Origin: Candidatus Lutacidiplasma silvani
GTDB lineage: Archaea; Thermoplasmatota; Thermoplasmata; Lutacidiplasmatales; UBA184
NCBI GenBank assembly: GCA_022750295.1
Contig: JAKIVZ010000010.1
Coordinates: 1 to 64,000 of the forward strand
DNA length: 64,000 bases
Direction of reading: 5' to 3'
Positions 3,132 through 33,726 of this stretch are shown piece by piece; the first letter of the stretch is position 1; every line of letters starts with the position of its first letter. The notes under the pieces are model-generated. The model worked only from the letters and a program-made list of their open reading frames with translations. It was not told where the DNA came from and did not search any database. The translations under genes and the position numbers were made by a program.

Positions 3132-3210
3132 AGGCGTTGCCCGCGACGGAGAAACTCCCGTCGACAGTGCGAAAGCCTCAAAGAGCGGGCCCGATACCGA
3201 GCCCGAGGCT

Positions 3211-3315
3211 GCTCCCGTAGTCTAGTGGTCAAGGATAGAGGCCTCTCGAGCCTCTGACGCGGGTTCAAAGCGGGTCGGCGACCGACGCCGTCCGGAGAAA
3301 CTCCCGCCGGGAGCA
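3211..3315 (+). tRNA. tRNA-Glu(CUC) with 32-nt insertion in the T-loop
   Basis: The acceptor arms GCTCCCG (3211-3217) and CGGGAGC (3308-3314) pair perfectly, with discriminator A3315. The anticodon stem GAGGC/GCCTC encloses loop CTCTCGA, giving anticodon CTC for Glu. The T-stem halves GCGGG (3259-3263) and CCCGC (3303-3307) are separated by TTCAAA, then 32 extra bases (3270-3301), then T. Removing them restores a normal TTCAAAT loop, the sequence also implied by the element's right-end copy. The 3' end is the integration target of the mobile element. Either the gene is spliced, or it is disrupted. Confidence 0.85.
3270..3301 (+). other. Candidate tRNA intron at T-loop position 59/60
   Basis: The insert begins GCGGG, repeating the T-stem 5' strand, so these bases can pair with the same CCCGC partner as the mature stem. 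With three-base bulges at 3268-3270 and 3300-3302, the central four base pairs CGGG/CCCG (3271-3274 with 3303-3306) are perfect. This is the core of a bulge-helix-bulge motif. The flanking helices are poor. The interior forms a GC-rich hairpin (CGGCG...CGCCG, 3276-3290). T-loop introns are known mainly from Thermoproteales. The alternative is a recombination scar. Confidence 0.55.
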
Positions 3316-3320
3316 CCTCA
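3302..3320. repeat. Left attachment site core (tRNA side)
   Basis: The sequence TCCCGCCGGGAGCACCTCA is identical to 19089-19107. It covers the T-stem 3' strand, the acceptor 3' strand, the discriminator base and five bases downstream. After it the two copies diverge (ACCTTAGGG here, CCATAGGG at the right end), which marks the crossover region. Confidence 0.9.
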
Positions 3321-3323
3321 ACC

Positions 3324-3336
3324 TTAGGGTAATACC
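3324..3336. promoter_or_regulatory. Left copy of 13-bp end motif, next to integrase promoter
   Basis: TTAGGGTAATACC occurs here and, in reverse complement, at 19064-19076. The left copy is part of a near-palindrome (AGGGT-AAT-ACCCT). It abuts a TATA-like CTTAAATC (3337-3344), centred about 26 bases before the integrase ATG and so placed for a leaderless transcript. It is therefore a candidate integrase binding site that could also repress the integrase promoter. Confidence 0.55.
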
Positions 3337-3366
3337 CTTAAATCCGACGAGTCCCTGAGCCGTGCG

Positions 3367-4707
3367 ATGGCGTCCAGGCCAGGAGTCGACGAGAAGCGCG
3401 AGCGGCTCAGCGATCCCGAAATTCGACGGTGGTTCGAGAACGTCGCCCGCGGCTCGCAAATCACCGCCGACAACTACCTCCGAAGCCTGTTCAATTTCTC
3501 GGCGCGAACGGGGCTCACCCCCGCTCAGATTGTCAAGCTGGACGGGAAAGCCGTGCACCGCCGCCTGCTCGATTTCGTGTCCGGCGAGGAGCGACGAGGC
3601 ATGGCCGGCTCGACGATCGTCACGTACGTCAAGGCGGTCCGAAGTTGGCTTGCTCATCACGGAAAAAAGGTGAATCGACCTGTCAAGATTCGTGGCGCCG
3701 GCCGGTCTCCGACTCTCGACGACGAACGGGTGCCTACGCCCGACGAGCTGCGCGACATCCTGCTGGCCGCTACCCCCCAACAGCGTGTGGCGGTCGCGCT
3801 CATGGCGTTCAGCGGCGTCCGGCCCGAGGTCCTCGGCAACTACTCTGGCAAAGACGGACTCCGAGTTGGAGACCTCCACGAGCTTCGGATCGAGCGAGGG
3901 AAGGTCTCGTTTGAGACTCTCCCCACGCTGGTCCGGGTACGAGAAACGCTCTCCAAGACCGGCGCGCCCTATTTCACGTTCCTCGGGGGAGAAGGCGCCC
4001 GCTACATCGCGGAGTACCTCGAGCAACGACTGCGCGACGGCGAGGAACTCGACCCGGCGACCGACATAATCCACCCAGGCTGGGCCGCGAAGGCGTTCAT
4101 CAGGTCAACGAAGGTCAGCGAGGCTGTCAAACGCGCGATTGTGAAAGCGGGCTTTTCCTGGCGGCCCTACGTGCTGCGTCATTACTTCGACACGCAGCTT
4201 CTAACGGCGGAGTCGAAGGGCAAGGTCGCGCACGATTTCCGCGTGTACTGGATGGGTCACACCGGCTCGATTGACGCGCGGTACACGACGAACAAGCGCC
4301 AGCTCCCCAAAGCGTTCATCGAGGAGATGCGCACGGCCTACAAGCGGTGCGAGCCTTTCCTCTCGACGATTCCGACGAAGGACGCAACCGATCAGGTTGC
4401 GAGCACGCGCGAGCTTCTGCTCCGTTTCGCTCAAGTCCCGGAAGCGGAGATAGCCAAACTCGACCTCGGTGGGATGACGAACGACGAGATTCTCGCCGTG
4501 GCCGAGAAGGCGCAGAGCGCGTCGCGACCGAGGCGGGGTCTGGGCGGCCAGAAGGCGGTCCCGGTTGCCAACGTGCGGTCTATGCTCGACGACGGGTGGG
4601 AGTATGTCGCACCGCTTGGGCTCGACCAAGCCGTCCTTCGCGGGCCTGCTTCCGTCCCAGCACCTCGGAGCCAAGATCGCGGCGTGCCCGGACCGACGTC
4701 TATCTGA
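3367..4707 (+). CDS. Tyrosine recombinase/integrase of the element
   Basis: This 446-residue protein should catalyse site-specific integration into and excision from tRNA-Glu. An N-terminal SAM-like core-binding domain covers about residues 15-105. The catalytic domain shows Arg152 in SGVRPEVL, then YVLRH with Arg271-His272 (the usual preceding His is Tyr268), His298 in GHTGS and nucleophile candidate Tyr306 in ARYTT. A C-terminal extension of about 140 residues ends in a GWEYV-type segment seen in many archaeal integrases. It is uninterrupted, so it is not the SSV type that splits on integration. The start at 3367 fits the TATA box 26 bases upstream. Its 3' end overlaps the convergent gene by 8 bases. 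Confidence 0.93.
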   Translation: MASRPGVDEKRERLSDPEIRRWFENVARGSQITADNYLRSLFNFSARTGLTPAQIVKLDGKAVHRRLLDFVSGEERRGMAGSTIVTYVKAVRSWLAHHGKKVNRPVKIRGAGRSPTLDDERVPTPDELRDILLAATPQQRVAVALMAFSGVRPEVLGNYSGKDGLRVGDLHELRIERGKVSFETLPTLVRVRETLSKTGAPYFTFLGGEGARYIAEYLEQRLRDGEELDPATDIIHPGWAAKAFIRSTKVSEAVKRAIVKAGFSWRPYVLRHYFDTQLLTAESKGKVAHDFRVYWMGHTGSIDARYTTNKRQLPKAFIEEMRTAYKRCEPFLSTIPTKDATDQVASTRELLLRFAQVPEAEIAKLDLGGMTNDEILAVAEKAQSASRPRRGLGGQKAVPVANVRSMLDDGWEYVAPLGLDQAVLRGPASVPAPRSQDRGVPGPTSI

Positions 4708-19063: not shown

Positions 19064-19076
19064 GGTATTACCCTAA
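19064..19076. repeat. Right copy of 13-bp end motif, inverted
   Basis: GGTATTACCCTAA is the exact reverse complement of 3324-3336. It lies 12 bases inside the right attachment core. An inverted pair at the two ends fits integrase arm-type binding sites. Confidence 0.7.
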
Positions 19077-19088
19077 TAGTAGCATAAA

Positions 19089-19107
19089 TCCCGCCGGGAG
19101 CACCTCA
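19089..19107. repeat. Right attachment site core
   Basis: This is an exact 19-base copy of the tRNA-Glu 3' end, preceded by AAA rather than by the 32-base intron. The preceding bases derive from the element, so its attP appears to carry an intron-less T-loop end (AAAT before CCCGC). Confidence 0.88.
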
Positions 19108-32140: not shown

Positions 32141-32668
32141 ATGACCGACGCCGTCCTCGTCGCCGACCTCCTCGAATCCGGGGCCGTTCGCTTTGGCACC
32201 TTCACCCTGACGAGCGGGCAGACGTCCGACGTCTACGTCGACGTGAAGCGGGCCACGACCGACCCTGCCCGGCTCCGTCGGATCGCCGAACGGCTGGCCG
32301 GTCGGGTCGCGGACGCGGACCGGTTCGCGGGGATGGAGCTCGGCGCCGTGCCGCTCGTCGTCGCGCTCGCTCTCGTGGCGGGGAAACCGTACGCGATCGT
32401 TCGCAAGGCGGCGCGGACCCACGGGACCGGAACGCGGGTCGAGGGGGAGGTCCCGCCCGGCGCCCGGGTCCTGGTCATCGAGGACGTGACGACGACGGGC
32501 GGCTCCGTCGTGGAGACGGTGGGGCTCCTCCGCGAAGCGGGCGCGACCGTCGACCGGGTCATCTGCGTCGTCGACCGGGGCCAGGGAGCGACCGAGAAGC
32601 TCGCGGGGATCGGGGTCCGGCTGGAACCGCTCGTCACGCTCGACGAGCTCCGAGGGTCTCGTCGGTGA
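32141..32668 (+). CDS. pyrE: Orotate phosphoribosyltransferase
   Basis: This enzyme converts orotate and PRPP to OMP in pyrimidine synthesis. The N-terminal LTSGQTSDVYVDVKRAT (substrate loop with Lys) and the PRPP signature VLVIEDVTTTGGSVVETVGL are clear. Length 175 matches archaeal PyrE. A purine-rich GGGAGGGGAG lies upstream of the ATG. The stop overlaps the endA GTG start by four bases (GTGA). Confidence 0.93.
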   Translation: MTDAVLVADLLESGAVRFGTFTLTSGQTSDVYVDVKRATTDPARLRRIAERLAGRVADADRFAGMELGAVPLVVALALVAGKPYAIVRKAARTHGTGTRVEGEVPPGARVLVIEDVTTTGGSVVETVGLLREAGATVDRVICVVDRGQGATEKLAGIGVRLEPLVTLDELRGSRR

Positions 32669-33726
32669 GCGCCCTCCTCGGGCGCGACGCCACGTCCCGG
32701 GTCGCCGACCCGTCCGACGCCGGCACCGTGTACGGACGGGGGTTCTTCGGAACCCCCAGCGCCGACGGCCTCGCCCTCGACCGGTACGAGACGGTGTACC
32801 TCGGTGAGATGGGTCGACTCGCGGTCGTCGACGGGCGCGAGCGGGCCGTCCTCTGGCCGGACCTGTTCCGTCGGGCGCTCCGCGCCGAGAAGGGATTCGG
32901 GGTCCGCTACATCGTCTACCGCGACCTCCGCCAGCGGGGGTACGTCGTCCGGCGGTCGCCGCCCCCCACGGCGTTCGCGGTCCTCCCCCGCGGCGGCGTC
33001 CTGAACAAGAGTCCGGCGAAGTACTGGGTCGCCGCGTACTCCGAGCGCCAGCCGTTCGACCTCGCGGAACTGGAGGCGCTCGCCGACCGGGCCCATGGGG
33101 CGAAGAAAGCGCTCCTCGTGGCGGTCGTCGACGAGGAGTCGGACCTGACGTTCTACCGGCTCCGTCGCTCCGCCCCGGTCGGCTCGCATCCCTCCCAGAC
33201 CCTCCCGGCTCCGGCCGGCGGGTGGCTCGCCGAGGACCGGGTCGTGGTGTTCGAGCCGGCGGCGGTCGCCGTCCTCGGCAAGGGGCTCGCCCACGGGAGC
33301 CGGATCGGCGAGCGGCTCGAGCTCTCCCTGCTCGAGGCCGCCCACTTGGTCGAGTCCGGCCAGCTCGCGCTCCGGGACGCCCGCACGGGGCGGCACGTCT
33401 CCTTGGAGCAACTCGGGCTCCGCGCCGCCAAGATCGAGAGCGGATTCTCCGAGCGGCTCGCCGCGTACCGTACCCTCCGGACCCGTCAGCTCGTCGTCAA
33501 GACCGGATTCAAGTACGGAGCCCATCTGCGGGCGTACCCGCGGAACCCCGAGACCGTTCACGCCCGGTACCTGGTCCGGGCCGTTCCCGCGGACTACCGG
33601 GCCCCGTGGCCCGAGCTCGCGGGGGCGGTCCGGGTCGCGCAGGGGGTCCGCAAGGACCTCTTGATCGCGGGCGTCGCTCCCGACGGCTCGGTCCGATTCC
33701 TCGGCCTCGAACGGGTTCGGCCCTAG
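32665..33726 (+). CDS. endA: tRNA-splicing endonuclease, fused-repeat form
   Basis: This protein excises introns at bulge-helix-bulge motifs. At 353 residues it is about twice the 180-residue unit, with two tandem domains. The C-terminal one keeps the catalytic triad: Tyr284 in GFKYGAHLR, His299 in TVHARYLV and Lys330 in VRKDLLIAG. The N-terminal copy resembles the family (VYGRGFFG, RYIVYRDLRQRGYVVRR) but lacks the triad, as in the euryarchaeal alpha2 type. Fused alpha2 enzymes usually prefer canonical intron sites, so the T-loop insertion in tRNA-Glu is a pointed question for this enzyme. Confidence 0.93.
   Translation: MSALLGRDATSRVADPSDAGTVYGRGFFGTPSADGLALDRYETVYLGEMGRLAVVDGRERAVLWPDLFRRALRAEKGFGVRYIVYRDLRQRGYVVRRSPPPTAFAVLPRGGVLNKSPAKYWVAAYSERQPFDLAELEALADRAHGAKKALLVAVVDEESDLTFYRLRRSAPVGSHPSQTLPAPAGGWLAEDRVVVFEPAAVAVLGKGLAHGSRIGERLELSLLEAAHLVESGQLALRDARTGRHVSLEQLGLRAAKIESGFSERLAAYRTLRTRQLVVKTGFKYGAHLRAYPRNPETVHARYLVRAVPADYRAPWPELAGAVRVAQGVRKDLLIAGVAPDGSVRFLGLERVRP

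Follow-up and report, generated by a model that had tools for sequence, protein, structure and literature searches.

A predicted bulge-helix-bulge intron in the T-loop of tRNA-Glu(CTC) of a Lutacidiplasmatales archaeon, adjoined by an element integrated at exon 2

Introduction

Bulge-helix-bulge (BHB) introns between tRNA positions 59 and 60 are known as a kind from Thermoproteales and other Thermoproteota, in which 59/60 is one intron position among several and the introns are short, occupy many tRNA genes per genome and may be accompanied by a further intron in the same tRNA (PMC4090602, PMC4033280). Euryarchaeal introns have been stated to occupy the canonical position only (PMC4090602). 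Reviews tie non-canonical tRNA introns to splicing endonucleases (EndA) of broad specificity, the α4 and α2 enzymes being described as cutting the canonical BHB only and the α′2 type as narrow (PMC6379350, PMC4033280, PMC4090602). Korarchaeum cryptofilum has been described as the only α2 archaeon with non-canonical introns, and its enzyme has a specific loop (PMC4033280). Previous work has also shown that the homodimeric EndA of Ferroplasma, a member of the Thermoplasmata, cleaves minimal BHB substrates, and homodimeric EndA is said to accept BHL-like motifs irrespective of the tRNA body (PMC8707768).

Here we describe a tRNA-Glu(CTC) gene of Candidatus Lutacidiplasma silvani with an insert between positions 59 and 60, found in a stretch of 64,000 nucleotides that was analysed as a whole and is called the window throughout. 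The insert resembles the Thermoproteota introns in its position, shortness, predicted BHB junctions and recurrence in many tRNA genes, and tRNAs with two introns are found in both groups; it differs from them in that the host belongs to the Thermoplasmata and has an α′2 EndA without the Crenarchaea-specific loop (CSL) instead of an (αβ)2 enzyme, and in that this kind of intron is scattered over distant families within the class. With the euryarchaeal 37/38 introns, which go with α4 or α′2 EndA, it shares the enzyme architecture (that of A. fulgidus, T. acidophilum and Ferroplasma) and a near-canonical geometry of a 3-nt bulge, a 4-position helix and a 3-nt bulge, but it lies in the T-loop and not in the anticodon loop. 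As in Korarchaeum, an α2-type EndA is encountered alongside non-canonical introns, whereas the specific loop of the Korarchaeum enzyme is absent from the aligned Thermoplasmata enzymes. By layout alone, the element integrated at the gene is like those of pNOB8 type, with an intact integrase gene that adjoins the reconstituted tRNA and shares its strand, and with part of the tRNA repeated at the distal end (PMC3293823); unlike in that layout, the attachment core begins exactly at exon 2 of a host tRNA interrupted by a T-loop intron. What is unexpected is not the intron type but its scale in the Thermoplasmata and its company, a loopless α′2 EndA.

Results

The features of the locus and of the splicing machinery are listed in Table 1. 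Run on the unspliced gene, ARAGORN called a tRNA-Glu(ctc) at 3211-3283, the start of the insert being taken as the end of the T-arm. After removal of the insert it called a normal tRNA-Glu, in which the acceptor (7/7), anticodon (5/5) and T (5/5) stems are perfect and the D stem has two G.U pairs; the perfect stems which the initial annotation had adduced in favour of an intron were thereby recovered. A scan of the window against Rfam at gathering scores produced no match, tRNA itself included, and a group I intron was rejected on this result and on the length of 32 nt, which is far too short. The 13-mer GGAGAAACTCCCG spanning the junction between intron and exon 2 (3294-3306) has an exact repeat 146 bp upstream (3148-3160), where some 20 nt in all are unlike the sequence of the nearest relatives.

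Table 1. Coordinates of the features in the window (contig G000:C10) and, where indicated, elsewhere in the same genome.
Feature	Coordinates	Strand	Remarks
tRNA-Glu(CTC) with insert	3211-3315	+	boundaries read directly from the sequence
Exon 1, positions 1-59	3211..3269	+	ends GCGGG-TTCAAA (...GCGGGTTCAAA)
Putative T-loop intron, 32 nt, between 59 and 60	3270..3301	+	GCGGGTCGGCGACCGACGCCGTCCGGAGAAAC; kept position, divergent sequence, covarying hairpin
Exon 2, position 60 to discriminator A73	3302..3315	+	TCCCGCCGGGAGCA; same in uninterrupted orthologues
Upstream box GCGAAAGCCTCAAAGAGCGG	3169..3188	+	conserved 5′ of the gene in relatives; probably the tRNA promoter
Predicted BHB central helix, 5′ strand, U54 U55 C56 A57	3264..3267	+	supplied by the T-loop
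Predicted BHB central helix, 3′ strand, intron A G A A (-6 to -3)	3296..3299	+	A57.A(-6) mismatch here
Intron hairpin, predicted inner helix	3271..3294	+	loop 3281-3285; MFE fold of the pre-tRNA, covariation in relatives
Attachment core by the tRNA (exon 2 + CCTCA), TCCCGCCGGGAGCACCTCA, 19 bp	3302..3320	+	exact repeat with 19089-19107
Far attachment core, other end of the element	19089..19107	+	exact 19-bp repeat; no intron sequence upstream
Tyrosine integrase	3367..4707	+	PF00589, score below curated cut-off; reads away from the tRNA
EndA, tRNA-splicing endonuclease, 353 aa, α′2, no CSL insertion	32665..33726	+	two PF01974 and two PF02778 stretches
RtcB, tRNA ligase	G000:C16:251744-253048		same genome
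Locus of a Met tRNA with D-loop insert (L083)	G000:C16:121220-121420		same genome
D-loop insert, tRNA-Lys(TTT) (L206)			same genome
D-loop insert, tRNA-Arg(GCG) (L208)			same genome
D-loop insert, tRNA-Leu(TAG) (L210)			same genome

In order to compare the gene with its relatives, we used 80 named public loci with tRNA-Glu(CTC), mostly from Lutacidiplasmatales. An insert of 26-32 nt was found at the identical point in 69 of them, which together with the window gave 70 inserts of 69 distinct sequences, whereas the exons scarcely varied and exon 1 was identical or nearly so in all 70 genes. Seven loci (L092, L095, L098, L105, L149, L150 and L161) are uninterrupted, and all read GGTTCAAA-TCCCGCCGGGAGCA, which is the spliced sequence predicted for the window. 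As to the four remaining loci, two from another family have long anticodon-loop introns and two are cut by contig ends. The identification of the 32-nt insert as an intron, put forward in the initial annotation, is supported by this conserved position, for which chance is no explanation, and by the normal tRNA-Glu that its removal restores.

In a tree of the divergent neighbouring gene, the intron state changes only once, by one gain or one loss, with the uninterrupted loci gathered on one side (97%) in a tree built on few columns. Both of the window's closest relatives in this tree, L135 (AcS5-58), which is the nearest, and L089, carry the intron; AcS5-58 and SubAcS10-22 are members of the Lutacidiplasmatales (PMC9287336). 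The comparison of these loci indicates that the T-loop insert dates back to, and is common to, the acid-soil genus.

Two observations would fit a decayed, non-functional gene: the intron goes unrecognised by ARAGORN, and the window's hairpin is less perfect than in most relatives, some pairs having been lost. We consider such decay extremely improbable, given that the exons are practically invariant over 70 genes whose introns diverge, that the upstream box is conserved, and that the assembly (about 91% complete) yielded no second tRNA-Glu(CTC) gene, the other tRNA-Glu found in it having the anticodon TTC.

The conserved core of the inserts consists of the T-loop UUCR (54-57) set against the intron 3′ end (YGAA/GGAA). 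Among the 69 distinct tRNA-Glu inserts, U54 faces A or G(-3) in 68, and U55 faces A or G(-4) and C56 faces G(-5) in every one. The partner of A57 is G in 50, U in 15, A in 3 (including the window) and C in 1, and the fourth central pair is mismatched in 54 of the 69, mostly as A.G and in the window as A.A. Since the window gene (UUCA/AGAA) has three Watson-Crick pairs plus A.A, it falls short of a strictly canonical four-pair BHB, a feature of canonical introns that relaxed ones need not have; of the central core first described for it, the 3-nt bulges stand, but the four base pairs come down to three. The mismatch makes the motif slightly relaxed, as opposed to the narrow specificity described for α′2 enzymes (PMC6379350). 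Pairing of the GCGGG copy that opens the insert with the partner of the T-stem strand, likewise proposed at first, was rejected: five pairs are possible on paper, yet the inserts of relatives begin with TCCGG, ACCGG or GCCGG, and the copy lies outside the conserved motif.

The inner helix (intron base 2 with -7, and inwards) has 84% standard pairs over the 69 distinct inserts. Re-dealing the 3′ halves 1000 times among introns of equal length gave 66% (s.d. 1.6, largest 73%), and sliding the register by one or two bases gave 28-55%. The strongest test came from other isotypes and drew on 27 genomes of the genus, with 70 T-loop inserts positive for the hairpin. Exon and intron covary in this set at the closing pair of the central helix (57/-6): C(-6) lies opposite G57 in 35/37 and opposite A57 in 0/33 (Fisher 1e-17). 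The same rule is followed by G57 genes inspected from other families and by 13/13 genes of the window's own genome (six G57 with C(-6), seven A57 with a purine). Such covariation is expected of a BHB splice motif, and we see no alternative cause for it. The geometry of 3-nt bulges around a 4-position helix is conserved together with the covarying junction, and cuts predicted after the second base of each bulge (A58 A59 ^ N1; A C ^ U60) coincide exactly with the 59/60 boundaries. In a nearest-neighbour model, formation of the central helix brings no gain in stability over the open loop (-30.1 against -30.8 kcal/mol), a comparison of which only the difference is meaningful, as the D and anticodon arms are one base off register in the same way in both structures.

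Bases 59-60 are exposed in tRNA structures and might tolerate a hairpin, so that the insert could also be conceived as escaping splicing and lengthening the T-loop of the mature tRNA between these flipped-out bases. The covariation of exon base 57 with an intron base speaks against it, because this pairing is incompatible with the mature elbow and is a sign of selection acting on a BHB-shaped fold of the precursor. Moreover, outside the junctions the insert is free to vary in length and sequence, and some orthologues lack the hairpin. We therefore hold retention to be very unlikely and continue with a spliced intron.

The host encodes both enzymes that splicing would call for, EndA and the tRNA ligase RtcB. 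EndA, the sole PF01974 protein found in the genome, has two N-terminal domains and two catalytic ones on a single chain (α′2 architecture), and the residues that line up with the conserved H and K of the A. fulgidus enzyme are retained in its C-terminal unit. Alignment with the A. fulgidus and M. jannaschii structures from the PDB revealed no insertion at the CSL site, where PDB 3p1y (315 aa) has extra residues. This entry we take to be A. fulgidus EndA grafted with the CSL. The loop between YGS and LSLLE has the wild-type A. fulgidus length in 21 aligned relatives across the class, and as far as this loop comparison goes, neither an (αβ)2 or ε2 EndA nor a CSL or ASL loop was found.

We also searched for further introns of this type with the pattern GGTTCRAAN{6,36}RAAMT, which describes the T-loop and the intron end. 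It gave 12 matches in the own genome and none in the reversed control, and the enrichment over control persisted across the same family; three of the 12 (L075, L078 and L082) look like chance matches and not tRNAs. By inspection and a covariance model, at least 13 tRNA genes of the genome have 59/60 introns: Glu(CTC), Gln(CTG), Asp(GTC), Asn(GTT), Gly(TCC), Arg(TCG), Arg(TCT), His(GTG), Lys(TTT), Ser(GCT), Ser(GGA), Ser(CGA) and Leu(TAG), in an inventory, possibly incomplete, drawn from RF00005, the pattern and a covariance model built for the purpose. Leu(TAG) and Lys(TTT) have a D-loop insert in addition to the T-loop intron, and Arg(GCG) and a Met tRNA have one without it.

With the covariance model, fully paired T-loop intron tRNAs were verified in at least 13 of the 31 families of the class represented by 42 genomes (f1, f2, f3, f6, f9, f13, f16, f18, f22, f23, f28, f30 and f32), a lower bound because only the best locus was read per genome. 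The initial remark that position 59/60 is rare outside Thermoproteales therefore does not apply to the Thermoplasmata. ARAGORN recognised four of eight unspliced candidates; as tRNA finders shorten or miss such genes, tRNA counts for these genomes are unreliable.

The element downstream of the gene is enclosed by the 19-bp repeats, about 15.8 kb apart, and encodes the tyrosine integrase, a primase-polymerase/D5-like protein and a resolvase. Most of the sequence between 3.3 and 19 kb has no match in relatives, save for integrase-bearing loci and two short similarities, whereas the neighbour on the upstream side of the tRNA is syntenic in 71 loci, and from about 21.8 kb onward the genes match relatives. 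The attachment core begins at the first base of exon 2 (3302), and the flank upstream of 19089-19107 is free of intron sequence, so the early suggestion that the element uses exon 2 and not the intron holds for the core. AAA stands immediately before the far core, the arrangement of a T-loop without an insert (CATAAATCCCGCC); the attachment site of the element could derive from an intronless gene, or the agreement could be due to chance (about 1/64). Just inside the element ends, at 3325-3338 and 19065-19077, lies a 13-bp inverted repeat (TTAGGGTAATACC / GGTATTACCCTAA), possibly candidate arm sites of the integrase. Integrase homologues were found 3′ of tRNA-Glu in L122, L139, L149 and L157, and 3′ of tRNA-Ala(CGC) in L045 of the same genome. 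The latter integrase (55% identical) lies directly downstream of the tRNA and probably marks a second element of the same family there.

Given that the insert abuts the 19-bp core, which starts at the very next base, and that the 13-bp copy of its junction is present upstream, we considered whether the insert might be a recombination scar or attachment-site debris left by the element. The initial annotation had reasoned that a scar would be seen only where the element is present, with uninterrupted genes in relatives, and the opposite was found. Where the sequence runs on for 1.5 kb or more downstream, 46 loci that bear the intron have no integrase match within 1.5 kb; an integrase or a fragment of one occurs at four intron-bearing loci (L110, L122, L139 and L157), and also at the uninterrupted L149. 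Because element-free relatives carry the insert, the scar is refuted and retains next to no probability. The far end of the element without the insert, an insert as old as the genus, the same intron type in 12 other tRNA genes of the genome and a covarying structure under selection all argue in the same direction, that is, for an intron.

Discussion

We conclude that the insert in tRNA-Glu(CTC) is very probably (about 0.93) an archaeal, protein-spliced BHB tRNA intron at the non-canonical position 59/60. Its position, conservation and covariation, as well as gene content and gene order, were observed by sequence, and from these we infer cleavage, ligation and the route of spread. The invariant T-loop UUCR (54-57) of the precursor would pair with the intron end (RRAA directly before the final AC); flanked by the T-stem on its outer side and by the intron hairpin on its inner side, this helix would complete a bulge-helix-bulge with A58 A59 ^ N1 as 5′ bulge and A C ^ U60 as 3′ bulge. 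The homodimeric (α′2) EndA would cut both bulges, and RtcB would ligate the exons into the normal loop UUCAAAU.

In our reading, EndA needs the motif and not the position, and the constant T-loop UUCR-AA gives half of it in every tRNA. As the same T-loop is found in all tRNAs, half of the splice motif would always be present, and any hairpin ending in GAAAC could live at 59/60; this ready-made half may explain one intron type in 13 tRNA genes here. A broader proposal, that the Thermoplasmata have undergone a large expansion of T-loop (and D-loop) introns with a loopless α′2 EndA of the narrow type by way of the universal UUCRAA half-BHB, is one that we favour with reservations. If true, the motif and not the enzyme class would limit intron position, in contradiction to the accepted rule of co-evolution, and the loopless α′2 class would make the link between non-canonical introns and broad-specificity EndA directly testable. 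A search of the open-access literature for non-canonical tRNA introns or the splicing endonuclease in Thermoplasmata retrieved none, and the paper on Lutacidiplasmatales makes no mention of introns (PMC9287336).

The notion of introns as a protection of tRNA genes against integration would likewise have to be qualified, given that the element appears to recombine in the 14-nt exon past the intron. By recombining inside exon 2 and the bases beyond, it would leave the older intron in place.

Other arrangements were encountered in the same order. In L030 (G026:C13) and L235 (G026:C20), from another family, tRNA-Glu and tRNA-Asp have two introns each, and their T-loop introns of 13-14 nt (TTCAAA-GCTATGTTGAAAA-T) combine a perfect UUCA/UGAA helix with next to no inner helix. 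In a further group of loci from another family (L022, L023, L021, L090 and L160), tRNA-Glu has very long anticodon-loop introns, of about 175, 207, 425 and 457 nt (gene lengths of 248-530 minus 73); archaeal tRNA introns are quoted as 11-129 nt (PMC4090602). These long introns gave no group I match in Rfam and are packed with repeated small hairpins, and that of L022 has an 87-nt unit twice, 94% alike. As regards tRNA-Glu(TTC), the gene is uninterrupted in G019 (L026, G019:C120) and in the window's genome (L031), and has an anticodon-loop insert in G022 (L040) and G007 (L024).
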